This document shows positions 28,533 through 64,000 of a stretch of 64,000 nt of DNA, piece by piece; position 1 is the stretch's first letter, and the number at the start of each line of letters is the position of its first letter. This DNA comes from Leptasterias polaris. Lineage: Eukaryota; Echinodermata; Asteroidea; Forcipulatida; Asteriidae. The notes beneath the pieces are model-generated. The model searched no databases, was not told where the DNA came from, and was given only the letters and a program-made list of their open reading frames with translations. The DNA lies in NCBI GenBank assembly GCA_037783415.1, contig JAZGTN010000085.1:2971501-3035500 (forward strand). Reading direction: 5' to 3'. Both the position numbers and the translations under genes were made by a program.

Positions 28533-28595
28533 CCTAACCCTAACCCTAACCCTAACCCTAACCCTAACCCTAACCCTAACCCTAACCCTAACCCT
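28533..28595 (-). repeat. Perfect telomeric CCCTAA block
   Basis: About 10.5 uninterrupted CCCTAA units (63 bp), C-rich on plus, thus opposite in orientation to the TTAGGG tract at 20937-21290. Located about 0.8 kb after the UPB1 stop codon. The purity contrasts with the decayed first tract. Confidence 0.97.
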
Positions 28596-33482: not shown

Positions 33483-33799
33483 CAAGCGAAAACCCGAACA
33501 CCTAGAGTTTGTGGTAACAAACTCTGAATTTGTTGGCCACATTACGCCCTCGATGTTAATATGCCCCGTCCCCCACTTCGATTTTATTAGTTTTGTAATT
33601 TTTTCAGTTAAACACATTCTAACAATTGAGGCTATTCAATACCCCGTTTAAGTTCGGTGCATTTTATTGATCCAGAACACCGGCGAAATAACTGACCCTA
33701 TGCATGCCACAACTCGTAGTCCCAATCCTTTCGTCGTATCTGTTTATACTTCTCTACTTTAACGGTGTTAATTCATTCTGAGGTTCTATATTATCCTAT

Positions 33800-35080
33800 G
33801 CAAATAAGGAAGAGGACCAGTGGCCTTGCGGACAAGGATCGGAATTCTGAACCCCATGGTTTCAGGTTCGAATGGCACCACGATACAATTATACCATTAC
33901 TTTACTTTTCCTTGGCTGTTGTTGACTTGATGTATTGGGTTTTAAATTAAACTCAAACGCAATTTAAGCGAGAGGAGCCGTGGCCCAGTGGAAGGGCTCC
34001 GGACTCTCAACTCAAAGGTACTGGGTTCGATTCCGCACTCTGCACCAAATGGTACTGGGTTCGAGCCCCTGGTGTTCCTTTTTATGTTTTTATTTTAGGG
34101 TTATTTATTTTACTTTTGGCCGTTAATGATTTGATGTTCAAGGGTTATAAATTAAACTCGAACGCACATTTAAGTAAGAGGAGCAGTGGCCCAGTGGATG
34201 GGCGCCGGACTCTGAACCCAAAGGTACTGGGTTCGATTCCCGGGTGTTCTTTTTGTACTCTTAAGGCTATTGGTTTACGCAGGATACTATCCCAAATGAA
34301 AAACCTTGCTTTATACTTAGTAAATAATTTGCAAGAGGAACGCATAGGGTATATACCAGTAGTTTACTTTTTAGCTGCTGTTGATTTGATATCCTAGGAT
34401 TTTAAATTAAACTCGAACGCATGTTAAGTAAGAAGAGCAGTGGTCCAGTGGAAGGGCTCCGGACTCTGCACCAAATGGTACTGTGTTCGAGCCCCTGGTG
34501 TTCCTTTTTATGTTTTTATTTTAGGGCTGTTTATTTTAAGGTTTAAAATTAAACTCAAACGCAAGTTAAGTAAGAGGAGCAGTGGCCCAGTGGAAGGGCT
34601 CCGGACTCTGAACCCAAAGGTACTGGGTTCGATTCCTGGGTGTTCTTTTTGTACTCTTAATGCCATTGGTTTACGCAGGATACTAAGGCATATGAAAAAC
34701 CGTGCTTTCCACTAATAGTAAATAATTTGCGCGTGGAAGGCACACGCTTTTTATACCAGTTGTTCACTTTTGGCCGTTAATGATTTGATGTTCAAGGGTT
34801 ATAAATTAAACTCGAATGCACATTTAAGTAAGAGGAGCAGTGGCCCAGTGGAAGGGCTCCGGACTCTCAACCCAAAGGTACTGGGTTCGATTCCCGGTTG
34901 TTCTTTTTGTACTCTTAATGCCATTGGTTTACGCAGGATACTAAGGCATATGAAAAACCTTGCTTACACTTAGTAAATAATTTGCGAGTGGAAGGCACAC
35001 GCTTTTTCTACCAGTAGTTCACTTTTTAGCTGCTGTTGATTTGATATCCTAGGATTTTAAATTAAACTCGAACGCTTGTT
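33800..35080 (+). repeat. Diverged proximal edge of the satellite
   Basis: The first head (33811-33885) has a degenerate B box (GGTTCGAATGG) and A box (TGGCCTTGCGG). The next (33972-34075) is a chimera with two B boxes (near 34024 and 34059). Monomers here do not follow the higher-order periods to the right, as expected for an array edge that escapes homogenisation. Confidence 0.85.
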
Positions 35081-38000
35081 AAGTAAGAAGAGCACTGGTC
35101 CAGTGGAAGGGCTCCGGACTCTGCACCAAATGGTACTGGGTTCGAGCCCCTGGTGTACCTTTTTATGTTATTATTTTAGGGTTGTTTATTTTACTTTTGG
35201 CCGTTAATGATTTGATGTTCAAGGGTTATAAATTAAACTCGAATGCACATTTAAGTAAGAGGAGCAGTGGCCCAGTGGATGTGCTCCGGACTCTGAACCC
35301 AAAGGTACTGGGTTCGATTCCCGGTTGTTCTTTTTGTACTCTTAAGGCTATTGGTTTACGCAGGATAGGCCTACTATCCCAAATGAAAAACCTTGCTTTA
35401 TACTTGGTAAATAATTTACAAGAGGAACGCATAGGCTATATACCAGTAGTTTACTTTTTAGCTGCTGTTGATTTGATATTCTCGGATTTTAAATTAAACT
35501 CGAAAGCATGTTAAGTAAGAAGAGCAGTGGTCCAGTGGAAGGGCTCCGGACTCTGCACCAAATGGTACTGGGTTCGAGCCCCTGGTGTTCCTTTTTATGT
35601 TTTTATTTTAGGGTTGTTTATTTTACTTTTGGCCGTTAATGATTTGATGTTCAAGGGTTATAAATTAAACTCGAATGCACATTTAAGTAAGAGGAGCAGT
35701 GGCCCAGTGGATGTGCTCCGGGCTCTGAACCCAAAGGTACTGGGTTCGATTCCCGGTTGTTCTTTTTGTACTCTTAAGGCTATTGGTTTACGCAGGATAG
35801 GCCTACTATCCCAAATGAAAAACCTTGCTTTATACTTGGTAAATAATTTGCAAGAGGAACGCATAAGCTATATACCAGTAGTTTACTTTTTAGCTGCTGT
35901 TGATTTGATATCCTAGGATTTTAAATTAAACTCGAACGCATGCTAGGTAAGAAGAGCAGTGGTCCAGTGGAAGGGCTCCGGACTCTCAACCCAAAGGTAC
36001 TGGGTTCGATTCCCGGTTGTTCTTTTTGTACTCTTAATGCCATTGGTTTACGCAGGATACTAAGGCATATGAAAAACCTTGCTTACACTTAGTAAATAAT
36101 TTGCGAGTGGAAGGCACACGCTTTTTCTACCAGTAGTTCACTTTTTAGCTGCTGTTGATTTGATATCCTAGGATTTTAAATTAAACTCGAACGCTTGTTA
36201 AGTAAGAAGAGCACTGGTCCAGTGGAAGGGCTCCGGACTCTGCACCAAATGGTACTGGGTTCGAGGCCCTGGTGTACCTTTTTATGTTATTATTTTAGGG
36301 TTGTTTATTTTACTTTTGGCCGTTAATGATTTGATGTTCAAGTGTTATAAATTATACTCGAATGCACATTTAAGTAAGAGGAGCAGTGGCCCAGTGGATT
36401 TGCTCCGGACTCTGAACCCAAAGGTACTGGGTTCGATTCCCGGTTGTTCTTTTTGTACTCTTAAGGCTATTGGTTTACGCAGGATAGGCCTACTATCCCA
36501 AATGAAAAACCTTGCTTTATACTTGGTAAATAATTTACAAGAGGAACGCATAGGCTATATACCAGTAGTTTACTTTTTAGCTGCTGTTGATTTGATATTC
36601 TCGGATTTTAAATTAAACTCGAAAGCATGTTAAGTAAGAAGAGCAGTGGTCCAGTGGAAGGGCTCCGGACTCTGCACCAAATGGTACTGGGTTCGAGCCC
36701 CTGGTGTTCCTTTTTATGTTTTTATTTTAGGGTTGTTTATTTTACTTTTGGCCGTTAATGATTTGATGTTCAAGGGTTATAAATTAAACTCGAATGCACA
36801 TTTAAGTAAGAGGAGCAGTGGCCCAGTGGATGTGCTCCGGGCTCTGAACCCAAAGGTACTGGGTTCGATTCCCGGTTGTTCTTTTTGTACTCTTAAGGCT
36901 ATTGGTTTACGCAGGATAGGCCTACTATCCCAAATGAAAAACCTTGCTTTATACTTGGTAAATAATTTGCAAGAGGAACGCATAAGCTATATACCAGTAG
37001 TTTACTTTTTAGCTGCTGTTGATTTGATATCCTAGGATTTTAAATTAAACTCGAACGCATGCTAGGTAAGAAGAGCAGTGGTCCAGTGGAAGGGCTCCGG
37101 ACTCTCAACCCAAAGGTACTGGGTTCGATTCCCGGTTGTTCTTTTTGTACTCTTAATGCCATTGGTTTACGCAGGATACTAAGGCATATGAAAAACCTTG
37201 CTTACACTTAGTAAATAATTTGCGAGTGGAAGGCACACGCTTTTTCTACCAGTAGTTCACTTTTTAGCTGCTGTTGATTTGATATCCTAGGATTTTAAAT
37301 TAAACTCGAACGCTTGTTAAGTAAGAAGAGCACTGGTCCAGTGGAAGGGCTCCGGACTCTGCACCAAATGGTACTGGGTTCGAGCCCCTGGTGTACCTTT
37401 TTATGTTATTATTTTAGGGTTGTTTATTTTACTTTTGGCCGTTAATGATTTGATGTTCAAGTGTTATAAATTATACTCGAATGCACATTTAAGTAAGACG
37501 AGCAGTGGCCCAGTGGATTTGCTCCGGACTCTGAACCCAAAGGTACTGGGTTCGATTCCCGGTTGTTCTTTTTGTACTCTTAAGGCTATTGGTTTACGCA
37601 GGATAGGCCTACTATCCCAAATGAAAAACCTTGCTTTATACTTGGTAAATAATTTGCAAGAGGAACGCATAGGCTATATACCAGTAGTTTACTTTTTAGC
37701 TGCTGTTGATTTGATATCCTAGGATTTTAAATTAAACTCGCAAGCATGTTAAGTAAGAAGAGCAGTGGTCCAGTGGAAGGGCTCCGGACTCTGCACCAAA
37801 TGGTACTGGGTTCGAGCCCCTGGTGTTCCTTTTTATGTTTTTATTTTAGGGTTGTTTATTTTACTTTTGGCCGTTAATGATTTGATGTTCAAGGGTTATA
37901 AATTAAACTCGAATGCACATTTAAGTAAGAGGAGCAGTGGCCCAGTGGATGGCTCCGGACTCTGAACCCAAAGGTACTGGGTTCGATTCCCGGTTGTTCT

Positions 38001-41000
38001 TTTTGTACTCTTAAGGCTATTGGTTTACGCAGGATAGGCCTACTATCCCAAATGAAAAACCTTGCTTTATACTTGGTAAATAATTTACAAGAGGAACGCA
38101 TAGGCTATATACCAGTAGTTTACTTTTTAGCTGCTGTTGATTTGATATTCTCGGATTTTAAATTAAACTCGAAAGCATGTTAAGTAAGAAGAGCAGTGGT
38201 CCAGTGGAAGGGCTCCGGACTCTGCACCAAATGGTACTGGGTTCGAGCCCCGGTTGTTCTTTTTGTACTCTTAATGCCATTGGTTTACGCAGGATACTAA
38301 GGCATATGAAAAACCTTGCTTACACTTAGTAAATAATTTGCGAGTGGAAGGCACACGCTTTTTCTACCAGTAGTTCACTTTTTAGCTGCTGTTGATTTGA
38401 TATCCTAGGATTTTAAATTAAACTCGAACGCTTGTTAAGTAAGAAGAGCACTGGTCCAGTGGAAGGGCTCCGGACTCTGCACCAAATGGTACTGGGTTCG
38501 AGGCCCTGGTGTACCTTTTTATGTTATTATTTTAGGGTTGTTTATTTTACTTTTGGCCGTTAATGATTTGATGTTCAAGTGTTATAAATTATACTCGAAT
38601 GCACATTTAAGTAAGAGGAGCAGTGGCCCAGTGGATTTGCTCCGGACTCTGAACCCAAAGGTACTGGGTTCGATTCCCGGTTGTTCTTTTTGTACTCTTA
38701 AGGCTATTGGTTTACGCAGGATAGGCCTACTATCCCAAATGAAAAACCTTGCTTTATACTTGGTAAATAATTTACAAGAGGAACGCATAGGCTATATACC
38801 AGTAGTTTACTTTTTAGCTGCTGTTGATTTGATATTCTCGGATTTTAAATTAAACTCGAAAGCATGTTAAGTAAGAAGAGCAGTGGTCCAGTGGAAGGGC
38901 TCCGGACTCTGCACCAAATGGTACTGGGTTCGAGCCCCTGGTGTTCCTTTTTATGTTTTTATTTTAGGGTTGTTTATTTTACTTTTGGCCGTTAATGATT
39001 TGATGTTCAAGGGTTATAAATTAAACTCGAATGCACATTTAAGTAAGAGGAGCAGTGGCCCAGTGGATGTGCTCCGGGCTCTGAACCCAAAGGTACTGGG
39101 TTCGATTCCCGGTTGTTCTTTTTGTACTCTTAAGGCTATTGGTTTACGCAGGATAGGCCTACTATCCCAAATGAAAAACCTTGCTTTATACTTGGTAAAT
39201 AATTTGCAAGAGGAACGCATAAGCTATATACCAGTAGTTTACTTTTTAGCTGCTGTTGATTTGATATCCTAGGATTTTAAATTAAACTCGAACGCATGCT
39301 AGGTAAGAAGAGCAGTGGTCCAGTGGAAGGGCTCCGGACTCTCAACCCAAAGGTACTGGGTTCGATTCCCGGTTGTTCTTTTTGTACTCTTAATGCCATT
39401 GGTTTACGCAGGATACTAAGGCATATGAAAAACCTTGCTTACACTTAGTAAATAATTTGCGAGTGGAAGGCACACGCTTTTTCTACCAGTAGTTCACTTT
39501 TTAGCTGCTGTTGATTTGATATCCTAGGATTTTAAATTAAACTCGAACGCTTGTTAAGTAAGAAGAGCACTGGTCCAGTGGAAGGGCTCCGGACTCTGCA
39601 CCAAATGGTACTGGGTTCGAGGCCCTGGTGTACCTTTTTATGTTATTATTTTAGGGTTGTTTATTTTACTTTTGGCCGTTAATGATTTGATGTTCAAGTG
39701 TTATAAATTATACTCGAATGCACATTTAAGTAAGAGGAGCAGTGGCCCAGTGGATTTGCTCCGGACTCTGAACCCAAAGGTACTGGGTTCGATTCCCGGT
39801 TGTTCTTTTTGTACTCTTAAGGCTATTGGTTTACGCAGGATAGGCCTACTATCCCAAATGAAAAACCTTGCTTTATACTTGGTAAATAATTTACAAGAGG
39901 AACGCATAGGCTATATACCAGTAGTTTACTTTTTAGCTGCTGTTGATTTGATATTCTCGGATTTTAAATTAAACTCGAAAGCATGTTAAGTAAGAAGAGC
40001 AGTGGTCCAGTGGAAGGGCTCCGGACTCTGCACCAAATGGTACTGGGTTCGAGCCCCTGGTGTTCCTTTTTATGTTTTTATTTTAGGGTTGTTTATTTTA
40101 CTTTTGGCCGTTAATGATTTGATGTTCAAGGGTTATAAATTAAACTCGAATGCACATTTAAGTAAGAGGAGCAGTGGCCCAGTGGATGTGCTCCGGGCTC
40201 TGAACCCAAAGGTACTGGGTTCGATTCCCGGTTGTTCTTTTTGTACTCTTAAGGCTATTGGTTTACGCATGATAGGCCTACTATCCCAAATGAAAAACCT
40301 TGCTTTATACTTGGTAAATAATTTGCAAGAGGAACGCATAAGCTATATACCAGTAGTTTACTTTTTAGCTGCTGTTGATTTGATATCCTAGGATTTTAAA
40401 TTAAACTCGAACGCATGCTAGGTAAGAAGAGCAGTGGTCCAGTGGAAGGGCTCCGGACTCTCAACCCAAAGGTACTGGGTTCGATTCCCGGTTGTTCTCT
40501 TTGTACTCTTAATGCCATTGGTTTACGCAGGATACTAAGGCATATGAAAAACCTTGCTTACACTTAGTAAATAATTTGCGAGTGGAAGGCACACGCTTTT
40601 TCTACCAGTAGTTCACTTTTTAGCTGCTGTTGATTTGATATCCTAGGATTTTAAATTAAACTCGAACGCTTGTTAAGTAAGAAGAGCACTGGTCCAGTGG
40701 AAGGGCTCCGGACTCTGCACCAAATGGTACTGGGTTCGAGCCCCTGGTGTACCTTTTTATGTTATTATTTTAGGGTTGTTTATTTTACTTTTGGCCGTTA
40801 ATGATTTGATGTTCAAGTGTTATAAATTATACTCGAATGCACATTTAAGTAAGACGAGCAGTGGCCCAGTGGATTTGCTCCGGACTCTGAACCCAAAGGT
40901 ACTGGGTTCGATTCCCGGTTGTTCTTTTTGTACTCTTAAGGCTATTGGTTTACGCAGGATAGGCCTACTATCCCAAATGAAAAACCTTGCTTTATACTTG

Positions 41001-41550
41001 GTAAATAATTTGCAAGAGGAACGCATAGGCTATATACCAGTAGTTTACTTTTTAGCTGCTGTTGATTTGATATCCTAGGATTTTAAATTAAACTCGCAAG
41101 CATGTTAAGTAAGAAGAGCAGTGGTCCAGTGGAAGGGCTCCGGACTCTGCACCAAATGGTACTGGGTTCGAGCCCCTGGTGTTCCTTTTTATGTTTTTAT
41201 TTTAGGGTTGTTTATTTTACTTTTGGCCGTTAATGATTTGATGTTCAAGGGTTATAAATTAAACTCGAATGCACATTTAAGTAAGAGGAGCAGTGGCCCA
41301 GTGGATGGCTCCGGACTCTGAACCCAAAGGTACTGGGTTCGATTCCCGGTTGTTCTTTTTGTACTCTTAAGGCTATTGGTTTACGCAGGATAGGCCTACT
41401 ATCCCAAATGAAAAACCTTGCTTTATACTTGGTAAATAATTTACAAGAGGAACGCATAGGCTATATACCAGTAGTTTACTTTTTAGCTGCTGTTGATTTG
41501 ATATTCTCGGATTTTAAATTAAACTCGAAAGCATGTTAAGTAAGAAGAGC
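35080..41550 (+). repeat. Higher-order repeat block, period 1119 bp (5 heads)
   Basis: Corresponding points recur at 35527, 36646, 37765, 38883, 40002 and 41121 (steps 1119, 1119, 1118, 1119, 1119). Unit order B-A-C-B'-A. Diagnostic variants recur with it, for example a 2-base deletion in the D-loop side (GTGGATGGCTCC) at 37945 and 41302 and a chimeric B-head/C-tail monomer near 38205. Confidence 0.93.
35945..36199 (+). repeat. Example type C monomer
   Basis: Head with loop CTCTCAA (formal anticodon CUC) and B box GGTTCGATTCC, then T5, AATGCCATTGGTTTACGCAG, ACTAAGGCATATG and CACACGCTTTTTCTACCAG. It shares the GCTGCTGTTGATTTGATATC end with type A. Confidence 0.85.
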
Positions 41551-44500
41551 AGTGGTCCAGTGGAAGGGCTCCGGACTCTGCACCAAATGGTACTGGGTTC
41601 GAGCCCCTGGTGTTCCTTTTTATGTTTTTATTTTAGGGTTGTTTATTTTACTTTTGGCCGTTAATGATTTGATGTTCAAGGGTTATAAATTAAACTCGAA
41701 TGCACATTTAAGTAAGAGGAGCAGTGGCCCAGTGGATGTGCTCCGGACTCTGAACCCAAAGGTACTGGGTTCGATTCCCGGTTGTTCTTTTTGTACTCTT
41801 AATGCCATTGGTTTACGCAGGATACTAAGGCATATGAAAAACCTTGCTTACACTTAGTAAATAATTTGCAAGAGGAACGCATAGGCTATATACCAGTAGT
41901 TTACTTTTTAGCTGCTGTTGATTTGATATCCTCGGATTTTAAATTAAACTCGAAAGCATGTTAAGTAAGAAGAGCAGTGGTCCAGTGGAAGGGCTCCGGA
42001 CTCTGCACCAAATGGTACTGGGTTCGAGCCCCTGGTGTTCCTTTTTATGTTTTTATTTTAGGGTTGTTTATTTTACTTTTGGCCGTTAATGATTTGATGT
42101 TCAAGGGTTATAAATTAAACTCGAATGCACATTTATGTAAGAGGAGCAGTGGCCCAGTGGATGTGCTCCGGACTCTGAACCCAAAGGTACTGGGTTCGAT
42201 TCCCGGTTGTTCTTTTTGTACTCTTAAGGCTATTGGTTTACGCAGGATAGGCCTACTATCCCAAATGAAAAACCTTGCTTTATACTTGGTAAATAATTTG
42301 CAAGAGGAACGCATAGGCTATATACCAGTAGTTTACTTTTTAGCTGCTGTTGATTTGATATCCTAGGATTTTAAATTAAACTCGAACGCATGCTAGGTAA
42401 GAAGAGCAGTGGTCCAGTGGAAGGGCTCCGGACTGTCAACCCAAAGGTACTGGGTTCGATTCCCGGTTGATCTTTTTGTACTCTTAATGCCATTGGTTTA
42501 CGCAGGATACTAAGGCATATGAAAAACCTTGCTTACACTTTGTAAATAATTTGCGAGTGGAAGGCACACGCTTTTTCTACCAGTAGTTCACTTTTTAGCT
42601 GCTGTTGATTTGATATCCTAGGATTTTAAATTAAACTCGAACGCTTGTTAAGTAAGAAGAGCACTGGTCCAGTGGAAGGGCTCCGGACTCTGCACCAAAT
42701 GGTACTGGGTTCGAGCCCCTGGTGTTCCTTTTTATGTTTTTATTTTAGGGTTGTTTATTTTACTTTTGGCCGTTAATGATTTGATATTCAAGGGTTATAA
42801 ATTAAACTCGAATGCACATTTAAGTAAGAGGAGCAGTGGCCCAGTGGATGGGCTCCGGACTCTGAACCCAAAGGTACTGGGTTCGATTCCCGGTTGTTCT
42901 TTTTGTACCCTTAAGGCTATTGGTTTACGCAGGATAGGCCTACTATCCCAAATGAAAAACCTTGCTTTATACTTGGTAAATAATTTGCAAGAGGAACACA
43001 TAGGCTATATACCAGTAGTTTACTTTTTAGCTGCTGTTGATTTGATATCCTGGCATTTTAAATTAAACTCGAAAGCATGCTAGGTAAGAAGAGCAGTGGT
43101 CCAGTGGAAGGGCTCCGGACTCTCAACCCAAAGGTACTGGGTTCGATTCCCGGTTGTTCTTTTTGTACTCTTAATGCCATTGGTTTACGCAGGATACTAA
43201 GGCATATGAAAAACCTTGCTTACACTTAGTAAATAATTTGCGAGTGGAAGGCACACGCTTTTTCTACCAGTAGTTCACTTTTTAGCTGCTGTTGATTTGA
43301 TATCCTAGGATTTTAAATTAAACTCGAACGCTTGTTAAGTAAGAAGAGCACTGGTCCAGTGGAAGGGCTCCGGACTCTGCACCAAATGGTACTGGGTTCG
43401 AGCCCCTGGTGTACCTTTTTATGTTATTATTTTAGGGTTGTTTATTTTACTTTTGGCCGTTAATGATTTGATGTTCAAGTGTTATAAATTATACTCGAAT
43501 GCACATTTAAGTAAGACGAGCAGTGGCCCAGTGGATTTGCTCCGGACTCTGAACCCAAAGGTACTGTGTTCGATTCCCGGTTGTTCTTTTTGTACTCTTA
43601 AGGCTATTGGTTTACGCAGGATAGGCCTACTATCCCAAATGAAAAACCTTGCTTTATACTTGGTAAATAATTTGCAAGAGGAACGCATAGGCTATATACC
43701 AGTAGTTTACTTTTTAGCTGCTGTTGATTTGATATCCTAGGATTTTAAATTAAACTCGCAAGCATGTTAAGTAAGAAGAGCAGTGGTCCAGTGGAAGGGC
43801 TCCGGACTCTGCACCAAATGGTACTGGGTTCGAGCCCCTGGTGTTCCTTTTTATGTTTTTATTTTAGGGTTGTTTATTTTACTTTTGGCCGTTAATGATT
43901 TGATGTTCAAGGGTTATAAATTAAACTCGAATGCACATTTAAGTAAGAGGAGCAGTGGCCCAGTGGATGGCTCCGGACTCTGAACCCAAAGGTACTGGGT
44001 TCGATTCCCGGTTGTTCTTTTTGTACTCTTAAGGCTATTGGTTTACGCAGGATAGGCCTACTATCCCAAATGAAAAACCTTGCTTTATACTTGGTAAATA
44101 ATTTACAAGAGGAACGCATAGGCTATATACCAGTAGTTTACTTTTTAGCTGCTGTTGATTTGATATTCTCGGATTTTAAATTAAACTCGAAAGCATGTTA
44201 AGTAAGAAGAGCAGTGGTCCAGTGGAAGGGCTCCGGACTCTGCACCAAATGGTACTGGGTTCGAGCCCCTGGTGTTCCTTTTTATGTTTTTATTTTAGGG
44301 TTGTTTATTTTACTTTTGGCCGTTAATGATTTGATGTTCAAGGGTTATAAATTAAACTCGAATGCACATTTAAGTAAGAGGAGCAGTGGCCCAGTGGATG
44401 TGCTCCGGACTCTGAACCCAAAGGTACTGGGTTCGATTCCCGGTTGTTCTTTTTGTACTCTTAATGCCATTGGTTTACGCAGGATACTAAGGCATATGAA

Positions 44501-47500
44501 AAACCTTGCTTACACTTAGTAAATAATTTGCAAGAGGAACGCATAGGCTATATACCAGTAGTTTACTTTTTAGCTGCTGTTGATTTGATATCCTCGGATT
44601 TTAAATTAAACTCGAAAGCATGTTAAGTAAGAAGAGCAGTGGTCCAGTGGAAGAGCTCCGGACTCTGCACCAAATGGTACTGGGTTCGAGCCCCTGGTGT
44701 TCCTTTTTATGTTTTTATTTTAGGGTTGTTTATTTTACTTTTGGCCGTTAATGATTTGATGTTCAAGGGTTATAAATTAAACTCGAATGCACATTTATGT
44801 AAGAGGAGCAGTGGCCCAGTGGATGTGCTCCGGACTCTGAACCCAAAGGTACTGGGTTCGATTCCCGGTTGTTCTTTTTGTACTCTTAAGGCTATTGGTT
44901 TACGCAGGATAGGCCTACTATCCCAAATGAAAAACCTTGCTTTATACTTGGTAAATAATTTGCAAGAGGAACGCATAGGCTATATACCAGTAGTTTACTT
45001 TTTAGCTGCTGTTGATTTGATATCCTAGGATTTTAAATTAAACTCGAACGCATGCTAGGTAAGAAGAGCAGTGGTCCAGTGGAAGGGCTCCGGACTGTCA
45101 ACCCAAAGGTACTGGGTTCGATTCCCGGTTGATCTTTTTGTACTCTTAATGCCATTGGTTTACGCAGGATACTAAGGCATATGAAAAACCTTGCTTACAC
45201 TTTGTAAATAATTTGCGAGTGGAAGGCACACGCTTTTTCTACCAGTAGTTCACTTTTTAGCTGCTGTTGATTTGATATCCTAGGATTTTAAATTAAACTC
45301 GAACGCTTGTTAAGTAAGAAGAGCACTGGTCCAGTGGAAGGGCTCCGGACTCTGCACCAAATGGTACTGGGTTCGAGCCCCTGGTGTTCCTTTTTATGTT
45401 TTTATTTTAGGGTTGTTTATTTTACTTTTGGCCGTTAATGATTTGATATTCAAGGGTTATAAATTAAACTCGAATGCACATTTAAGTAAGAGGAGCAGTG
45501 GCCCAGTGGATGGGCTCCGGACTCTGAACCCAAAGGTACTGGGTTCGATTCCCGGTTGTTCTTTTTGTACCCTTAAGGCTATTGGTTTACGCAGGATAGG
45601 CCTACTATCCCAAATGAAAAACCTTGCTTTATACTTGGTAAATAATTTGCAAGAGGAACACATAGGCTATATACCAGTAGTTTACTTTTTAGCTGCTGTT
45701 GATTTGATATCCTGGCATTTTAAATTAAACTCGAAAGCATGCTAGGTAAGAAGAGCAGTGGTCCAGTGGAAGGGCTCCGGACTCTCAACCCAAAGGTACT
45801 GGGTTCGATTCCCGGTTGTTCTTTTTGTACTCTTAATGCCATTGGTTTACGCAGGATACTAAGGCATATGAAAAACCTTGCTTACACTTAGTAAATAATT
45901 TGCGAGTGGAAGGCACACGCTTTTTCTACCAGTAGTTCACTTTTTAGCTGCTGTTGATTTGATATCCTAGGATTTTAAATTAAACTCGAACGCTTGTTAA
46001 GTAAGAAGAGCACTGGTCCAGTGGAAGGGCTCCGGACTCTGCACCAAATGGTACTGGGTTCGAGCCCCTGGTGTACCTTTTTATGTTATTATTTTAGGGT
46101 TGTTTATTTTACTTTTGGCCGTTAATGATTTGATGTTCAAGTGTTATAAATTATACTCGAATGCACATTTAAGTAAGACGAGCAGTGGCCCAGTGGATTT
46201 GCTCCGGACTCTGAACCCAAAGGTACTGTGTTCGATTCCCGGTTGTTCTTTTTGTACTCTTAAGGCTATTGGTTTACGCAGGATAGGCCTACTATCCCAA
46301 ATGAAAAACCTTGCTTTATACTTGGTAAATAATTTGCAAGAGGAACGCATAGGCTATATACCAGTAGTTTACTTTTTAGCTGCTGTTGATTTGATATCCT
46401 AGGATTTTAAATTAAACTCGCAAGCATGTTAAGTAAGAAGAGCAGTGGTCCAGTGGAAGGGCTCCGGACTCTGCACCAAATGGTACTGGGTTCGAGCCCC
46501 TGGTGTTCCTTTTTATGTTTTTATTTTAGGGTTGTTTATTTTACTTTTGGCCGTTAATGATTTGATGTTCAAGGGTTATAAATTAAACTCGAATGCACAT
46601 TTAAGTAAGAGGAGCAGTGGCCCAGTGGATGGCTCCGGACTCTGAACCCAAAGGTACTGGGTTCGATTCCCGGTTGTTCTTTTTGTACTCTTAAGGCTAT
46701 TGGTTTACGCAGGATAGGCCTACTATCCCAAATGAAAAACCTTGCTTTATACTTGGTAAATAATTTACAAGAGGAACGCATAGGCTATATACCAGTAGTT
46801 TACTTTTTAGCTGCTGTTGATTTGATATTCTCGGATTTTAAATTAAACTCGAAAGCATGTTAAGTAAGAAGAGCAGTGGTCCAGTGGAAGGGCTCCGGAC
46901 TCTGCACCAAATGGTACTGGGTTCGAGCCCCTGGTGTTCCTTTTTATGTTTTTATTTTAGGGTTGTTTATTTTACTTTTGGCCGTTAATGATTTGATGTT
47001 CAAGGGTTATAAATTAAACTCGAATGCACATTTAAGTAAGAGGAGCAGTGGCCCAGTGGATGTGCTCCGGACTCTGAACCCAAAGGTACTGGGTTCGATT
47101 CCCGGTTGTTCTTTTTGTACTCTTAATGCCATTGGTTTACGCAGGATACTAAGGCATATGAAAAACCTTGCTTACACTTAGTAAATAATTTGCAAGAGGA
47201 ACGCATAGGCTATATACCAGTAGTTTACTTTTTAGCTGCTGTTGATTTGATATCCTCGGATTTTAAATTAAACTCGAAAGCATGTTAAGTAAGAAGAGCA
47301 GTGGTCCAGTGGAAGAGCTCCGGACTCTGCACCAAATGGTACTGGGTTCGAGCCCCTGGTGTTCCTTTTTATGTTTTTATTTTAGGGTTGTTTATTTTAC
47401 TTTTGGCCGTTAATGATTTGATGTTCAAGGGTTATAAATTAAACTCGAATGCACATTTATGTAAGAGGAGCAGTGGCCCAGTGGATGTGCTCCGGACTCT

Positions 47501-48410
47501 GAACCCAAAGGTACTGGGTTCGATTCCCGGTTGTTCTTTTTGTACTCTTAAGGCTATTGGTTTACGCAGGATAGGCCTACTATCCCAAATGAAAAACCTT
47601 GCTTTATACTTGGTAAATAATTTGCAAGAGGAACGCATAGGCTATATACCAGTAGTTTACTTTTTAGCTGCTGTTGATTTGATATCCTAGGATTTTAAAT
47701 TAAACTCGAACGCATGCTAGGTAAGAAGAGCAGTGGTCCAGTGGAAGGGCTCCGGACTGTCAACCCAAAGGTACTGGGTTCGATTCCCGGTTGATCTTTT
47801 TGTACTCTTAATGCCATTGGTTTACGCAGGATACTAAGGCATATGAAAAACCTTGCTTACACTTTGTAAATAATTTGCGAGTGGAAGGCACACGCTTTTT
47901 CTACCAGTAGTTCACTTTTTAGCTGCTGTTGATTTGATATCCTAGGATTTTAAATTAAACTCGAACGCTTGTTAAGTAAGAAGAGCACTGGTCCAGTGGA
48001 AGGGCTCCGGACTCTGCACCAAATGGTACTGGGTTCGAGCCCCTGGTGTTCCTTTTTATGTTTTTATTTTAGGGTTGTTTATTTTACTTTTGGCCGTTAA
48101 TGATTTGATATTCAAGGGTTATAAATTAAACTCGAATGCACATTTAAGTAAGAGGAGCAGTGGCCCTGTGGATGGGCTCCGGACTCTGAACCCAAAGGTA
48201 CTGGGTTCGATTCCCGGTTGTTCTTTTTGTACCCTTAAGGCTATTGGTTTACGCAGGATAGGCCTACTATCCCAAATGAAAAACCTTGCTTTATACTTGG
48301 TAAATAATTTGCAAGAGGAACGCATAGGCTATATACCAGTAGTTTACTTTTTAGCTGCTGTTGATTTGATATCCTGGCATTTTAAATTAAACTCGAAAGC
48401 ATGTTAAGTA
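40670..48410 (+). repeat. Higher-order repeat block, period 2662 bp (12 heads)
   Basis: Marker pairs at exactly 2662 bp: 41552/44214/46876, 41977/44639/47301, 42751/45413/48075, 43438/46100 and 43783/46445; the period already holds from 40776 to 43438. Shared private variants such as GGTTGATC (42467, 45129, 47791) and the CTCTGAACCC head joined to the AAGGCATATG tail confirm true repeat copies. Confidence 0.93.
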
Positions 48411-49280
48411 AGAAGAGCAGTGGTCCAGTGGAACGGCTCCGGACTCTGCACCAAATGGTACTGGGTTCGAGCCCCTGGTGTTCCTTTTTATGTTTTTATT
48501 TTAGGGTTGTTTATTTTACTTTTGGCCGTTAATGATTTGATGTTCAAGGGTTATAAATTAAACTCGAATGCACATTTAAGTAAGAGGAGCAGTGGCCCAG
48601 TGGATGTGCTCCGGACTCTGAACCCAAAGGTACTGGGTTCGATTCCCGGTTGTTCTTTTTGTACTCTTAAGGCTATTGGTTTACGCAGGATAGGCCTACT
48701 ATCCCAAATGAAAAACCTTGCTTTATACTTGGTAAATAATTTGCAAGAGGAACGCATAGGCTATATACCAGTAGTTTACTTTTTAGCTGCTGTTGATTTG
48801 ATATCCTAGGATTTTAAATTAAACTCGAACGCATGCTAGGTAAGAAGAGCAGTGGTCCAGTGGAAGGGCTCCGGACTCTCAACCCAAAGGTACTGGGTTC
48901 GATTCCCGGTTGTTCTTTTTGTACTCTTAAGGCTATTGGTTTACGCAGGATAGGCCAACTATAGGTGCAAATGAAAAACCTTGCTTTATACTTGGTAAAT
49001 AATTTGCAAGAGGAACGCATAGGCTATATACCAGTAGTTTACTTTTTAGCTGCTGTTGATTTGATATCCTAGGATTTTAAATTAAACTCGCAAGCATGTT
49101 AAGTAAGAAGAGCAGTGGTCCAGTGGAAGGGCTCCGGACTCTGCACCAAATGGTACTGGGTTCGAGCCCCTGGTGTTCCTTTTTATGTTTTTATTTTAGG
49201 GTTGTTTATTTTACTTTTGGCCGTTAATGATTTGATGTTCAAGGGTTATAAATTAAACTCGAATGCACATTTAAGTAAGA

Positions 49281-49351
49281 GGAACAGTGGCCCAGTGGAT
49301 GGGCTCCGGACTCTGAACCCAAAGGTACTGGGTTCGATTCCCGGTTGTTCT
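49281..49351 (+). other. Example tRNA-like head, best-folding form
   Basis: A 71-base segment with canonical tRNA arm lengths. Acceptor GGAACAG/TTGTTCT pairs over 7 positions (two G-U). D stem GCCC/GGGC is perfect with loop AGTGGAT. T stem CTGGG/CCCGG has one G-U with loop TTCGATT, and the variable region is 5 bases. The anticodon loop CTCTGAA would give CUG (Gln), but the anticodon stem CCGGA/CCCAA forms only two canonical pairs. T5 follows at 49351-49355. So it is tRNA-derived and pol III-like, but not a good tRNA gene. Confidence 0.8.
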
Positions 49352-49532
49352 TTTTGTACTCTTAAGGCTATTGGTTTACGCAGGATAGGCCTACTATCCC
49401 AAATGAAAAACCTTGCTTTATACTTGGTAAATAATTTGCAAGAGGAACGCATAGGCTATATACCAGTAGTTTACTTTTTAGCTGCTGTTGATTTGATATC
49501 CTGGCATTTTAAATTAAACTCGAAAGCATGTT

Positions 49533-49964
49533 AAGTAAGAAGAGCAGTGGTCCAGTGGAAGGGCTCCGGACTCTGCACCAAATGGTACTGGGTTCGAGCC
49601 CCTGGTGTTCCTTTTTATGTTTTTATTTTAGGGTTGTTTATTTTACTTTTGGCCGTTAATGATTTGATGTTCAAGGGTTATAAATTAAACTCGAATGCAC
49701 ATTTAAGTAAGAGGAGCAGTGGCCCAGTGGATGGGCTCCGGACTCTGAACCCAAAGGTACTGGGTTCGATTCCAGGTTGTTCTTTTTGTACCCTTAAGGC
49801 TATTGGTTTACGCAGGATAGGCCTACTATCCCAAATGAAAAACCTTGCTTTATACTTGGTAAATAATTTGCAAGAGGAACGCATTGGCTATATACCAGTA
49901 GTTTACTTTTTAGCTGCTGTTGATTTGATATCCTAGGATTTTAAATTAAACTCGAACGCATGCT
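49533..49964 (+). repeat. Example B-A dimer, 432 bp
   Basis: B monomer 49533-49704 and A monomer 49705-49964. B head: loop CTCTGCA, B box GGTTCGAGCCC, T5 after GTGTTCC; its T stem has one mismatch, so it folds worse than A. The shared ends (TTGATTTGAT...TAAATTAAACTCGAA) show that A and B descend from one ancestor. Confidence 0.88.
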
Positions 49965-52900
49965 AGGTAAGAAGAGCAGTGGTCCAGTGGAAGGGCTCCG
50001 GACTCTCAACCCAAAGGTACTGGGTTCGATTCCCGGTTGTTCTTTTTGTACTCTTAAGGCTATTGGTTTACGCAGGATAGGCCAACTATAGGTGCAAATG
50101 AAAAACCTTGCTTTATACTTGGTAAATAATTTGCAAGAGGAACGCATAGGCTATATACCAGTAGTTTACTTTTTAGCTGCTGTTGATTTGATATCCTAGG
50201 ATTTTAAATTAAACTCGCAAGCATGTTAAGTAAGAAGGGCAGTGGTCCAGTGGAAGGGTTCCGGACTCTGCACCAAATGTTACTGGGTTCGAGCCCCTGG
50301 TGTTCCTATTTATGTTTTTATTTTAGGGTTGTTTATTTTACTTTTGGCCGTTAATGATTTGATGTTCAAGGGTTATAAATTATACTCGAATGCACATTTA
50401 AGTAAGAGGAACAGTGGCCCAGTGGATGGGCTCCGGACTCTGAACCCAAAGGTACTGGGTTCGATTCCCGGTTGTTCTTTTTGTACTCTTAAGGCTATTG
50501 GTTTACGCAGGATAGGCCTACTATCCCAAATGAAAAACCTTGCTTTATACTTGGTAAATAATTTGCAAGAGGAACGCATAGGCTATATACCAGTAGTTTA
50601 CTTTTTAGCTGCTGTTGATTTGATATCCTGGCATTTTAAATTAAACTCGAAAGCATGTTAAGTAAGAAGAGCAGTGGTCCAGTGGAACGGCTCCGGACTC
50701 TGCACCAAATGGTACTGGGTTCGAGCCCCTGGTGTTCCTTTTTATGTTTTTATTTTAGGGTTGTTTATTTTACTTTTGGCCGTTAATGATTTGATGTTCA
50801 AGGGTTATAAATTAAACTCGAACGCACATTTAAGTAAGAGGAGCAGTGGCCCAGTGGATGGGCTCCGGACTCTGAACCCAAAGGTACTGGGTTCGATTCC
50901 AGGTTGTTCTTTTTGTACTCTTAAGGCTATTGGTTTACGCAGGATAGGCCTACTATCCCAAATGAAAAACCTTGCTTTATACTTGGTAAATAATTTGCAA
51001 GAGGAACGCATAGGCTATATACCAGTAGTTTACTTTTTAGCTGCTGTTGATTTGATATCCTAGGATTTTAAATTAAACTCGCAAGCATGTTAAGTAAGAA
51101 GAGCAGTGGTCCATTGGAAGGGCTCCGGACTCTGCACCAAATGGTACTGGGTTCGAGCCCCTGGTGTTCCTTTTTATGTTTTTATTTTAGGGTTGTTTAT
51201 TTTACTTTTGGCCGTTAATGATTTGATGTTCAAGGGTTATAAATTAAACTCGAATGCACATTTAAGTAAGAGGAACAGTGGCCCAGTGGATGGGCTCCCG
51301 ACTCTGAACCCAAAGGTACTGGGTTCGATTCCCGGTTGTTCTTTTTGTACTCTTAAGGCTATTGGTTTACACAGGATAGGCCTACTATCCCAAATGAAAA
51401 ACCTTGCTTTATACTTGGTAAATAATTTGCAAGAGGAACGCATAGGCTATATACCAATAGTTTACTTTTTAGCTGCTGTTGATTTGATATCCTAGGATTT
51501 TAAATTAAACTCGAACGCTTGTTAAGTAAGAAGAGCACTGGTCCAGTGGAAGGGCTCCGGACTCTGCACCAAATGGTACTGGGTTCGAGCCCCTGGTGTA
51601 CCTTTTTATGTTATTATTTTAGGGTTGTTTATTTTACTTTTGGCCGTTAATGATTTGATGTTCAAGGGTTATAAATTAAACTCGAATGCACATTTAAGTA
51701 AGAGGAGCAGTGGCCCTGTGGATGGGCTCCGGACTCTGAACCCAAAGGTACTGGGTTCGATTCCCGGTTGTTCTTTTTGTACCCTTAAGGCTATTGGTTT
51801 ACGCAGGATAGGCCTACTATCCCAAATGAAAAACCTTGCTTTATACTTGGTAAATAATTTGCAAGAGGAACGCATAGGCTATATACCAGTAGTTTACTTT
51901 TTAGCTGCTGTTGATTTGATATCCTGGCATTTTAAATTAAACTCGAAAGCATGTTAAGTAAGAAGAGCAGTGGTCCAGTGGAACGGCTCCGGACTCTGCA
52001 CCAAATGGTACTGGGTTCGAGCCCCTGGTGTTCCTTTTTATGTTTTTATTTTAGGGTTGTTTATTTTACTTTTGGCCGTTAATGATTTGATGTTCAAGGG
52101 TTATAAATTAAACTCGAATGCACATTTAAGTAAGAGGAGCAGTGGCCCAGTGGATGTGCTCCGGACTCTGAACCCAAAGGTACTGGGTTCGATTCCCGGT
52201 TGTTCTTTTTGTACTCTTAAGGCTATTGGTTTACGCAGGATAGGCCTACTATCCCAAATGAAAAACCTTGCTTTATACTTGGTAAATAATTTGCAAGAGG
52301 AACGCATAGGCTATATACCAGTAGTTTACTTTTTAGCTGCTGTTGATTTGATATCCTAGGATTTTAAATTAAACTCGAACGCATGCTAGGTAAGAAGAGC
52401 AGTGGTCCAGTGGAAGGGCTCCGGACTCTCAACCCAAAGGTACTGGGTTCGATTCCCGGTTGTTCTTTTTGTACTCTTAAGGCTATTGGTTTACGCAGGA
52501 TAGGCCAACTATAGGTGCAAATGAAAAACCTTGCTTTATACTTGGTAAATAATTTGCAAGAGGAACGCATAGGCTATATACCAGTAGTTTACTTTTTAGC
52601 TGCTGTTGATTTGATATCCTAGGATTTTAAATTAAACTCGCAAGCATGTTAAGTAAGAAGAGCAGTGGTCCAGTGGAAGGGCTCCGGACTCTGCACCAAA
52701 TGGTACTGGGTTCGAGCCCCTGGTGTTCCTTTTTATGTTTTTATTTTAGGGTTGTTTATTTTACTTTTGGCCGTTAATGATTTGATGTTCAAGGGTTATA
52801 AATTAAACTCGAATGCACATTTAAGTAAGAGGAACAGTGGCCCAGTGGATGGGCTCCGGACTCTGAACCCAAAGGTACTGGGTTCGATTCCCGGTTGTTC

Positions 52901-58335: not shown

Positions 58336-58716
58336 TTTAAATTAAACTCGAACGCATGCTAGGTAAGAAGAGCAGTGGTCCAGTGGAAGGGCTCCGGACT
58401 CTCAACCCAAAGGTCCTGGGTTCGATTCCCGGTTGATCTTTTTGTACTCTTAATGCCATTGGTTTACGCAGGATACTAAGGCATATGAAAAACCTTGCTT
58501 ACACTTTGTAAATAATTTGCGAGTGGAAGGCACACGCTTTTTCTACCAGTAGTTCACTTTTTAGCTGCTGTTGATTTGATATCCTAGGATTTTAAATTAA
58601 ACTCGAACGCTTGTTAAGTAAGAAGAGCACTGGTCCAGTGGAAGGGCTCCGGACTCTGCACCAAATGGTACTGGGTTCGAGCCCCTGGTGTACCTTTTTA
58701 TGTTATTATTTTAGGG

Positions 58717-61700
58717 TTGTTTATTTTACTTTTGGCCGTTAATGATTTGATGTTCAAGGGTTATAAATTAAACTCGAATGCACATTTAAGTAAGAGGAGC
58801 AGTGGCCCAGTGGATGTGCTCCGGACTCTGAACCCAAAGGTACTGGGTTCGATTCCCGGTTGTTCTTTTTGTACTCTTAAGGCTATTGGTTTACGCAGGA
58901 TAGGCCTACTATCCCAAATGAAAAACCTTGCTTTATACTTGGTAAATAATTTGCAAGAGGAACGCATAGGCTATATACCAGTAGTTTACTTTTTAGCTGC
59001 TGTTGATTTGATATCCTAGGATTTTAAATTAAACTCGCAAGCATGTTAAGTAAGAAGAGCAGTGGTCCAGTGGAAAGGCTCCGGACTCTGCACCAAATGG
59101 TACTGGGTTCGAGCCCCTGGTGTTCCTTTTTATGTTTTTATTTTAGGGTTGTTTATTTTACTTTTGGCCGTTAATGATTTGATATTCAAGGGTTATAAAT
59201 TAAACTCGAATGCACATTTAAGTAAGAGGAGCAGTGGCCCAGTGGATGGTCTCCGGACTCTGAACCCAAAGGTACTGGGTTCGATTCCCGGTTGTTCTTT
59301 TTGTACCCTTAAGGCTATTGGTTTACGCAGGATAGGCCTACTATCCCAAATGAAAAACCTTGCTTTATACTTGGTAAATAATTTGCAAGAGGAACGCATA
59401 GGCTATATACCAGTAGTTTACTTTTTAGCTGCTGTTGATTTGATATCCTGGCATTTTAAATTAAACTCGAAAGCATGTTAAGTAAGAAGAGCAGTGGTCC
59501 AGTGGAACGGCTCCGGACTCTGCACCAAATGGTACTGTGTTCGAGCCCCTGGTGTTCCTTTTTATGTTTTTATTTTAGGGTTGTTTATTTTACTTTTGGC
59601 CGTTAATGATTTGATGTTCAAGGGTTATAAATTAAACTCGAATGCACATTTAAGTAAGAGGAGCAGTGGCCCAGTGGATGTGCTCCGGACTCTGAACCCA
59701 AAGGTACTGGGTTCGATTCCCGGTTGTTCTTTTTGTACTCTTAAGGCTATTGGTTTACGCAGGATAGGCCTACTATCCCAAATGAAAAACCTTGCTTTAT
59801 ACTTGGTAAATAATTTGCAAGAGGAACGCATAGGCTATATACCAGTAGTTTACTTTTTAGCTGCTGTTGATTTGATATCCTAGGATTTTAAATTAAACTC
59901 GAACGCATGCTAGGTAAGAAGAGCAGTGGTCCAGTGGAAGGGCTCCGGACTCTCAACCCAAAGGTACTGGGTTCGATTCCCGGTTGTTCTTTTTGTACTC
60001 TTAAGGCTATTGGTTTACGCAGGATAGGCCAACTATAGGTGCAAATGAAAAACCTTGCTTTATACTTGGTAAATAATTTGCAAGAGGAACGCATAGGCTA
60101 TATACCAGTAGTTTACTTTTTAGCTGCTGTTGATTTGATATCCTAGGATTTTAAATTAAACTCGCAAGCATGTTAAGTAAGAAGAGCAGTGGTCCAGTGG
60201 AAGGGCTCCGGACTCTGCACCAAATGGTACTGGGTTCGAGCCCCTGGTGTTCCTTTTTATGTTTTTATTTTAGGGTTGTTTATTTTACTTTTGGCCGTTA
60301 ATGATTTGATGTTCAAGGGTTATAAATTAAACTCGAATGCACATTTAAGTAAGAGGAACAGTGGCCCAGTGGATGGGCTCCGGACTCTGAACCCAAAGGT
60401 ACTGGGTTCGATTCCCGGTTGTTCTTTTTGTACTCTTAAGGATATTGGTTTACGCAGGATAGGCCTACTATCCCAAATGAAAAACCTTGCTTTATACTTG
60501 GTAAATAATTTGCAAGAGGAACGCATAGGCTATATACCAGTAGTTTACTTTTTAGCTGCTGTTGATTTGATATCCTGGCATTTTAAATTAAACTCGAAAG
60601 CATGTTAAGTAAGAAGAGCAGTGGTCCAGTGGAACGGCTCCGGACTCTGCACCAAATGGTACTGGGTTCGAGCCCCTGGTGTTCCTTTTTATGTTTTTAT
60701 TTTAGGGTTGTTTATTTTACTTTTGGCCGTTAATGATTTGATGTTCAAGGGTTATAAATTAAACTCGAACGCACATTTAAGTAAGAGGAGCAGTGGCCCA
60801 GTGGATGGGCTCCGGACTCTGAACCCAAAGGTACTGGGTTCGATTCCAGGTTGTTCTTTTTGTACTCTTAAGGCTATTGGTTTACGCAGGATAGGCCTAC
60901 TATCCCAAATGAAAAACCTTGCTTTATACTTGGTAAATAATTTGCAAGAGGAACGCATAGGCTATATACCAGTAGTTTACTTTTTAGCTGCTGTTGATTT
61001 GATATCCTAGGATTTTAAATTAAACTCGCAAGCATGTTAAGTAAGAAGAGCAGTGGTCCAGTGGAAAGGCTCCGGACTCTGCACCAAATGGTACTGGGTT
61101 CGAGCCCCTGGTGTTCCTTTTTATGTTTTTATTTTAGGGTTGTTTATTTTACTTTTGGCCGTTAATGATTTGATGTTCAAGGGTTATAAATTAAACTCGA
61201 ATGCACATTTAAGTAAGAGGAGCAGTGGCCCAGTGGATGGTCTCCGGACTCTGAACCCAAAGGTACTGGGTTCGATTCCCGGTTGTTCTTTTTGTACCCT
61301 TAAGGCTATTGGTTTACGCAGGATAGGCCTACTATCCCAAATGAAAAACCTTGCTTTATACTTGGTAAATAATTTGCAAGAGGAACGCATAGGCTATATA
61401 CCAGTAGTTTACTTTTTAGCTGCTGTTGATTTGATATCCTGGCATTTTAAATTAAACTCGAAAGCATGTTAAGTAAGAAGAGCACTGGTCCAGTGGAACG
61501 GCTCCGGACTCTGCACCAAATGGTACTGTGTTCGAGCCCCTGGTGTTCCTTTTTATGTTTTTATTTTAGGGTTGTTTATTTTACTTTTGGCCGTTAATGA
61601 TTTGATGTTCAAGGGTTATAAATTAAACTCGAATGCACATTTAAGTAAGAGGAGCAGTGGCCCAGTGGATGTGCTCCGGACTCTGAACCCAAAGGTACTG

Positions 61701-64000
61701 GGTTCGATTCCCGGTTGTTCTTTGTGTACTCTTAAGGCTATTGGTTTACGCAGGATAGGCCTACTATCCCAAATGAAAAACCTTGCTTTATACTTGGTAA
61801 ATAATTTGCAAGAGGAACGCATAGGCTATATACCAGTAGTTTACTTTTTAGCTGCTGTTGATTTGATATCCTAGGATTTTAAATTAAACTCGAACGCATG
61901 CTAGGTAAGAAGAGCAGTGGTCCAGTGGAAGGGCTCCGGACTCTCAACCCAAAGGTACTGGGTTCGATTCCCGGTTGTTCTTTTTGTACTCTTAAGGCTA
62001 TTGGTTTACGCAGGATAGGCCAACTATAGGTGCAAATGAAAAACCTTGCTTTATACTTGGTAAATAATTTGCAAGAGGAACGCATAGGCTATATACCAGT
62101 AGTTTACTTTTTAGCTGCTGTTGATTTGATATCCTAGGATTTTAAATTAAACTCGCAAGCATGTTAAGTAAGAAGAGCAGTGGTCCAGTGGAAGGGCTCC
62201 GGACTCTGCACCAAATGGTACTGGGTTCGAGCCCTTGGTGTTCCTTTTTATGTTTTTATTTTAGGGTTGTTTATTTTACTTTTGGCCGTTAATGATTTGA
62301 TGTTCAAGGGTTATAAATTAAACTCGAATGCACATTTAAGTAAGAGGAACAGTGGCCCAGTGGATGGGCTCCGGACTCTGAACCCAAAGGTACTGGGTTC
62401 GATTCCCGGTTGTTCTTTTTGTACTCTTAAGGATATTGGTTTACGCAGGATAGGCCTACTATCCCAAATGAAAAACCTTGCTTTATACTTGGTAAATAAT
62501 TTGCAAGAGGAACGCATAGGCTATATACCAGTAGTTTACTTTTTAGCTGCTGTTGATTTGATATCCTGGCATTTTAAATTAAACTCGAAAGCATGTTAAG
62601 TAAGAAGAGCAGTGGTCCAGTGGAAGGGCTCCGGACTCTGCACCAAATGGTACTGGGTTCGAGCCCCTGGTGTTCCTTTTTATGTTTTTATTTTAGGGTT
62701 GTTTATTTTACTTTTGGCCGTTAATGATTTGATGTTCAAGGGTTATAAATTAAACTCGAACGCACATTTAAGTAAGAGGAGCAGTGGCCCAGTGGATGGG
62801 CTCCGGACTCTGAACCCAAAGGTACTGGGTTCGATTCCAGGTTGTTCTTTTTGTACTCTTAAGGCTATTGGTTTACGCAGGATAGGCCTACTATCCCAAA
62901 TGAAAAACCTTGCTTTATACTTGGTAAATAATTTGCAAGAGGAACGCATAGGCTATATACCAGTAGTTTACTTTTTAGCTGCTGTTGATTTGATATCCTA
63001 GGATTTTAAATTAAACTCGCAAGCATGTTAAGTAAGAAGAGCAGTGGTCCAGTGGAAAGGCTCCGGACTCTGCACCAAATGGTACTGGGTTCGAGCCCCT
63101 GGTGTTCATTTTTATGTTTTTATTTTAGGGTTGTTTATTTTACTTTTGGCCGTTAATGATTTGATGTTCAAGGGTTATAAATTAAACTCGAATGCACATT
63201 TAAGTAAGAGGAGCAGTGGCCCAGTGGATGGTCTCCGGACTCTGAACCCAAAGGTACTGGGTTCGATTCCCGGTTGTTCTTTTTGTACCCTTAAGGCTAT
63301 TGGTTTACGCAGGATAGGCCTACTATCCCAAATGAAAAACCTTGCTTTATACTTGGTAAATAATTTGCAAGAGGAATGCATAGGCTATATACCAGTAGTT
63401 TACTTTTTAGCTGCTGTTGATTTGATATCCTGGCATTTTAAATTAAACTCGAAAGCATGTTAAGTAAGAAGAGCACTGGTCCAGTGGAACGGCTCCGGAC
63501 TCTGCACCAAATGGTACTGTGTTCGAGCCCCTGGTGTTCCTTTTTATGTTTTTATTTTAGGGTTGTTTATTTTACTCTTGGCCGTTAATGATTTGATGTT
63601 CAAGGGTTATAAATTAAACTCGAATGCACATTTAAGTAAGAGGAGCAGTGGCCCAGTGGATGTGCTCCGGACTCTGAACCCAAAGGTACTGGGTTCGATT
63701 CCCGGTTGTTCTTTTTGTACTCTTAAGGCTATTGGTTTACGCAGGATAGGCCTACTATCCCAAATGAAAAACCTTGCTTTATACTTGGTAAATAATTTGC
63801 AAGAGGAACGCATAGGCTATATACCAGTAGTTTACTTTTTAGCTGCTGTTGATTTGATATCCTAGGATTTTAAATTAAACTCGAACGCATGCTAGGTAAG
63901 AAGAGCAGTGGTCCAGTGGAAGGGCTACGGACTCTCAACCCAAAGGTACTGGGTTCGATTCCCGGTTGTTCTTTTTGTACTCTTAAGGCTATTGGTTTAC
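58717..64000 (+). repeat. Higher-order repeat block, period 1991 bp (9 heads)
   Basis: Markers at 59062/61053/63044, 59888/61879, 60189/62180, 60621/62612 and 61572/63563, 1991 apart. 2423 minus 1991 is 432, exactly one B-A dimer. The block runs off the right edge. Confidence 0.92.

Follow-up and report, generated by a model that had tools for sequence, protein, structure and literature searches.

Tandem tRNA-like units with RNA polymerase III-type signals in Leptasterias polaris: probable local expansion of a module from a larger dispersed repeat

A stretch of 64,000 nucleotides from the genome of Leptasterias polaris, referred to here as the window (C85:2,971,501-3,035,500; genome of 629.7 Mb in 334 contigs), contains a long array of tandem units, each with a tRNA-like segment (the head) and with sequences resembling the internal promoter boxes and terminator of genes transcribed by RNA polymerase III (Pol III). 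The locus raises the question of whether these units are a battery of working transcription units or whether their signals are the inherited remains of a tRNA-related sequence. The reading that we regard as probable, on comparison of the array with related loci in the same genome, is that of a recently expanded and probably passive satellite, which would have arisen by local expansion of a tandem tRNA-pseudogene module within a larger dispersed repeat and whose Pol III-like signals would have been inherited. Information regarding the array, its signals, its sister loci and the other explanations considered is presented below.

Organization of the array and its Pol III-like signals

Units were anchored on the B-box region (GGTACTGGGTTCGA, with up to 3 mismatches), and this has identified 137 head anchors at positions 34,017-63,945, all of them on the plus strand. 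The over 30 kb of head-to-tail monomers with tRNA-like heads reported in the preliminary description of this DNA are confirmed by these anchors, as is its 432-bp dimer (172 + 260 bp), which Tandem Repeats Finder recovers as a period, together with a period of 255-263 bp, near-continuously over the whole of the window beyond 34.5 kb. The array is also present over the interval first assigned to it (33,800-64,000), but its limits lie elsewhere: clean units begin at ~33,946, the segment 33,800-33,945 consisting of one diverged head and flank, and the array extends past the window end for ~11.8 kb more, via L009, where 45 further anchors are found, to ~L010:1840, giving a total of ~42 kb (C85:3,005,446-3,047,340). 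The units in the window, arranged head to tail, are mostly of 172 bp (53 units) and of 253-263 bp (viz. 260 bp, 53 units; 255 bp, 12; 263 bp, 7; and 253 bp, 3), and the remainder are four units of 171 bp and five singletons, the last one clipped at the window end. Two anchors at the rearranged left edge of the array lie only 34 bp apart, and the right edge is made of 143-bp units.

In the long units the order from 5' to 3' is a TATA-like stretch, the tRNA-like head with its A box and B box, a T5 run and a long spacer. The short units carry TGGTCCAGTGG and mostly GGTTCGAGCCC, followed by a shorter spacer; these two strings are the A box and B box of the short units and still fit the relaxed consensus sequences for the two boxes. 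The coordinates of representative features are given in Table 1.

Table 1. Positions in the window of the array, example units with their signals, block repeats and flank.
Feature	Position	Strand	Remarks
Inner flank, edge of larger dispersed repeat	33475..33800	+	common to several sister loci
Diverged first tRNA-like head, left edge	33813..33880	+	read from sequence; counterpart at L026 182-239, 77.6% to head
Tandem array of tRNA-like units	33946..64000	+	137 head anchors; on to ~L010:1840
Short unit, example	35027..35198	+	172 bp; A box TGGTCCAGTGG, B box GGTTCGAGCCC, T5
Long unit, example	35199..35458	+	260 bp
TATA-like TATAAATTAAAC	35227..35238	+	begins 34 bp upstream of tRNA position 1
tRNA-like head in example long unit	35261..35332	+	Rfam RF00005, 29.3 bits
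A box TGGCCCAGTGG	35268..35278	+	
B box GGTTCGATTCC	35311..35321	+	
T5 terminator-like run	35331..35335	+	9 nt after B box
Higher-order repeat	40190..45809	+	99.64% identical at lag 2,662 bp
Higher-order repeat	58609..64000 (stretch to ~64,821)	+	lag 1,991 bp, 99.34% identical

The relaxed set of A box, B box and T4 run is complete in 125 of the 137 window units. Considered singly, an A box with no more than 2 mismatches is found in 135/137 units, of which 131 have it at a constant offset and 4 show a shift of one base; a T5 run follows the B box within 30 nt in 134/137; and a TATA-like string (TATAAATTAAAC, TTTAAATTAAAC or TTAAAATTAAAC), which was not among the signals first listed for this array, begins ~33-34 bp before tRNA position 1 in 125/137. 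The full signal set was found neither on the minus strand of the array, nor on either strand of window positions 1-33,800, nor in any of 100 first-order Markov simulations of the array, and its occurrence in 125/137 units is therefore far beyond chance. The preliminary description had assigned the strings that it quoted for the two boxes, plus T5, to every monomer; this is sustained for the relaxed set in most units, but the exact TGGCCCAGTGG (56 occurrences) and the exact GGTTCGATTCC (75 occurrences) are found together in just 52/137 units. In its tandem organization, its tRNA-like heads and these signals, the array has the structure of a tRNA-related (Pol III-type) satellite. Since the sets of boxes and T-runs are real, regularly spaced and present in most units, it could in principle offer more than 100 Pol III-type units. 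To that extent the earlier suggestion of about 135 potential Pol III units is borne out by regularly spaced sets, but the heads are tRNA pseudogenes and the array forms part of a larger repeat, as described below.

The retention of both boxes and the T-run in so many window units, the constant spacing of the boxes and the position of the TATA-like stretch are the observations that would speak for an active array, in which Pol III would produce short RNAs from many heads, or in which TFIIIC bound to the B boxes would make the array a barrier or clustering element. The further evidence bearing on this possibility comes from the heads and from the sister arrays.

The tRNA-like heads and the retention of signals in sister arrays

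Matches to the Rfam tRNA model have been obtained for 63 heads in the array, at 29.3-40.9 bits, and a probable true Glu tRNA elsewhere in the genome scores 59.4 bits with the same model. ARAGORN calls four of the window heads as tRNA-Gln (CTG) and a further four heads in sister arrays. In 168 distinct heads from six locus groups, standard pairs occupy 30-40% of the anticodon-arm cells per group (36% overall), and the slid controls for this arm give 13-50%. Across the same groups the D arm is paired in 88-100% and the T arm in 73-95%, figures that are biased upwards because the motifs that served to pick the heads overlap both D arm and B box, and acceptor pairing varies from 46 to 84%. No cloverleaf was obtained in minimum free energy folds of three heads (z-scores -0.3 to -1.75). 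On account of the poorly paired anticodon arm, the non-cloverleaf folds and the low range of Rfam scores, we have rejected the idea that these are functional tRNA genes, and the heads are tRNA pseudogenes.

Shorter sister arrays, made of 143-bp and 255-bp units, are present on C4, C3, C70 and C206. The C70 array has 12 anchors and the C206 array has 9 anchors spaced 143 bp apart. The full signal set is present in 73/86 distinct units at C85, in 12 sets for the 12 anchors of C70 and in 8 for the 9 of C206, and also in 40/67 distinct units of the ABC group, 21/60 of D (C4:2.12-2.14 Mb) and 1/8 of E. Where units contain insertions, the fixed 126-nt cut used for these counts can miss the T-run; the decay in D is nevertheless plain in the units themselves, the B box being found in 46/60 distinct units and a T4 run in 23/60 (commonly TTGTTT instead). 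The D, ABC and E arrays are tandem despite their broken signals, which indicates that the signals are unnecessary for the growth or spread of an array, and this argues against the active reading set out above.

The tests for selection on the boxes gave mixed results. When distinct units are counted, the B box ranks 1st of 115 offsets in conservation, in favour of activity, and the A box 6th of 113; with loci weighted, the two rank 7th and 18th, respectively. The conservation of the boxes does not significantly exceed that of the remaining head sequence (p = 0.17), which tells against a role for them. As for the head as a whole, it is slower than the 62 bp upstream in 12/15 pairs of 143-bp consensuses, and lower than the nearest 36 bp upstream in 8/15 pairs (means of 0.092 vs. 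0.115, six consensuses). For one distant pair, viz. the C85 long unit and C206, 3/76 head sites differ vs. 13/37 upstream. The units, however, look mosaic, some pairs being near-identical upstream yet different in their heads, and module exchange in such units can mimic selection, including the slow head of the C85/C206 pair. The ranks of the two boxes, the retention of signals at C85, C70 and C206 and the slow head are compatible with weak selection acting on the head. For Arabidopsis, one report describes tRNA genes that occur in clusters, with promoter and terminator intact, as largely silenced (PMC10701932), and this also counts against activity here. Taking both sides together, we consider that Pol III transcription or TFIIIC binding across the array is unlikely.

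The larger dispersed repeat and the C4 palindromes

The sequences adjoining the arrays are themselves repeated. Window positions 33,475-33,950 align to L037 785-1289 at 91.9% and positions 33,648-33,950 to L026 5-319 at 89.6% (L026 lies inside L028), and sequence resembling the inner flank adjoins the arrays at L027, L028, the left arm of L029, L030, L037 and C70; it was not seen at the right arm of L029 nor, among the matches listed, at L031 or L032. Outer-flank sequence comes after the array at each of C85, A, B, C, D and C206. A 211-bp piece of it has at least 83 matches genome-wide (40 of 271 candidates scored), at least 13 of which, on C4, C3, C85, C206, C64 and C123, are near full query length. 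A piece of the long-unit spacer likewise occurs outside the arrays, in the outer flank (mono260 174-258 and 196-229). Because these flanks are common to many loci, the array is a single module within a larger dispersed repeat. A self-standing satellite of working units is not supported, in view of the pseudogene heads, the larger repeat and the broken signals of the sister arrays.

The same larger repeat could conceivably be more than a passive carrier. It may be an undescribed multi-kb dispersed element of which the array and its sisters are hallmark modules, with its own tandem battery of TATA-like stretch, A box, B box and T-run; the ~190 units at C85 would then be bound by TFIIIC or transcribed, yielding either a short RNA specific to this locus or a boundary in chromatin, and the signals would decay elsewhere. 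We hold this to be very unlikely.

Another possible source of a tandem array with tRNA-like heads is a dispersed tRNA-headed short interspersed element (SINE) trapped in tandem, as in squamate reptiles. Other tRNA-headed families do occur in this genome, viz. a 106-bp Leu-tRNA-like array (L022) and solitary copies (L001 and L005), and these would lend the idea some plausibility. However, in a BLAST comparison of the head with a sample of loci from this genome, it was found in arrays only, viz. the C85 continuation, C4 (L026-L032) and C3 (L037), with 7 to 39 matches per array in the stretches compared; in the genome-wide comparison (40 of 1,132 candidate places scored) 77 of the 78 matches are on C85 and the other is in the C70 array; and no SINE-like body or tail was seen by eye after the head. 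We consider a SINE origin very unlikely.

The arrays on C4 are located within inverted arms, between which lies a short centre. The arms of unit A align over 3,780 bp at 89.6%, units B and C align to unit A in both orientations, and several tandem repeats are carried by the arms; in unit A there are thus long inverted arms with internal tandem repeats, as in Tetris. Furthermore, no Pfam domain was detected at E values up to 0.5 in six translated stretches, of which five were taken from the repeat or its immediate surroundings and one from the window LINE. These characteristics made a foldback transposon a strong candidate at first, with the module as a working part of a Tetris-like element, its arms holding tandem repeats that expanded to a satellite. 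The case was weakened by the outer flanks, for which two pairs are comparable (A right vs. B right, 97.7%; A left vs. C left, 99.7%; B left and C right lie outside the comparison) and which, being common within each pair, point to segmental copies of one event. The repeat also runs beyond the palindrome end at C3, C85, C206, C64 and C123, and no target-site duplication, transposase or defined ends of the Tetris kind were seen in the palindromic repeat. A foldback origin of the module is unlikely on this evidence. In view of the common flanks and of the repeat past the palindrome end, the palindrome is most simply explained by a single rearrangement that was copied later within a larger segment. 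At ~2.507, 2.635 and 2.760 Mb of C4 (L029, L030 and L027-L028) there are three near-alike palindromic blocks, ~124-128 kb apart, which probably represent a large segmental duplication with inverted arms.

Growth of the array, known systems and neighbouring repeats

Under the reading that we prefer, viz. local expansion of a tandem tRNA-pseudogene module, the array would have started from a tRNA-derived sequence and its 5' flank, which gave a 143-bp basic unit composed of TATA-like stretch, tRNA-like head, T-run and spacer. This 143-bp unit, found at the right edge of the array and in the sister loci, would be the older form. The longer unit of 253-263 bp probably arose by the joining of a piece from neighbouring repeat sequence, as its spacer piece also occurs there. 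At C85, exchange of multi-unit blocks would then have spread the 172 + 260 bp dimer to ~42 kb, for which unequal crossing-over of such blocks is the simplest mechanism, and the Pol III signals would have been carried along, inherited and mostly passive.

Recent block duplication is directly visible at this locus. The 135 units compared comprise only 57 distinct sequences, and in addition to the higher-order repeats of Table 1 there is a block repeat with a lag of 3,550 bp (99.58% over 47,896-52,137). At the right edge, in L010-L011 (C85:3,046,561-3,061,174), a block of ~5.34 kb that comprises outer flank together with some of the array occurs as a direct repeat at 99.1%. One genome thus displays likely stages in the making of a satellite, from short arrays of 143-bp units through a composite unit to a 42-kb array with block duplication, and it offers a case of tRNA-derived sequence becoming a satellite. 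The occurrence of intact and decayed signals side by side makes the role of Pol III boxes in satellite growth and chromatin directly testable.

The class to which this array belongs is not new, since tRNA satellites have been named in maize (PMC10335936) and in Xenopus, newt and frog (PMC10702118). The available text of these accounts permits the following comparisons. The maize tRNASAT_ZM, a tRNA satellite array of 91.95 kb on chr4L (PMC10335936), is likewise a long tandem array of a repeat named for tRNA; it is from a plant, and the likeness is one of description and is not put forward as homology. Newt PolIII/TAN, Xenopus OAX (satellite I) and Rana/polIII are amphibian tandem repeats with a tRNA-like segment, as here, and according to PMC10702118 the first is transcribed in vitro; their units differ in length (~360 nt in newt, 250 nt in frog, longer in OAX), and they too are likened by description. 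The SINE-derived satellites reported from squamate reptiles resemble the present array in being tandem, tRNA-headed and subject to growth and homogenisation at each locus separately (PMC10702118), but no parent SINE was found here and the array lies inside a multi-kb dispersed repeat.

Tetris of Drosophila virilis, with its TIR-220 repeats, provides a parallel in that tandem repeats of a larger dispersed repeat have given rise to long, more uniform arrays; the available text contains no description of TIR-220 as tRNA-like (PMC4079207), and in contrast to Tetris the palindromes here are probably segmental copies of one event, without proven ends. In the part of the report that was available, the tRNA-Cys cluster of Arabidopsis (PMC10701932) is similar in that each repeated unit has promoter boxes and a terminator along with its tRNA gene, but it consists of tRNA genes in 4-6 units, whereas the heads described here have a poorly paired anticodon arm. 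Satellites of Harttia catfish are also stated to include tRNA-derived parts (PMC11955569, available in part). No report of this array or of any echinoderm tRNA satellite was found among the papers listed in the literature searches, which covered neither subscription papers nor repeat databases.

Several other repeats have been noted in the course of this work. A second and unrelated array at L022 690-1945 (C4:3,464,189-3,465,444) has a unit of 106 bp, in which a head resembling Leu(CAA) tRNA, recognized by eye, is followed by a SINE-like stretch; a B-box spacing of ~106 bp also occurs at the L021, L023 and L024 places, and the solitary Leu-tRNA-like copies at L001 and L005 are of the same kind. 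A third tRNA-like tandem repeat, with a period of ~98-116 bp and the B-box-like GGGTTCGAACCC, lies on the minus strand at window positions 26662-27582, and in the outer flank (L010 4465-4999 and L028 6500-6760) there is a 108-bp tandem repeat with the B-box-like GGGAGTTCGATTT. A broken LINE, in which an endonuclease and the remnant of a reverse transcriptase are recognizable, lies at window positions 13177-16704. Among the 86 relatives listed for its endonuclease, the three closest show identities of 88, 72 and 60%, and the sea urchin Lytechinus variegatus supplies the best named one (57%, with 69% of the query aligned); the sequence GDIHPNPGP in the first open stretch of this LINE resembles a 2A-type motif. 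Interstitial telomere-like repeats are present at 20937-21231 (degenerate TAGGGT) and at 28533-28595 (a perfect CCTAAC run of 10.5 copies), and a 24-bp minisatellite of 33 copies, with more than one open frame and these on both strands, occupies window positions 5709-6489.
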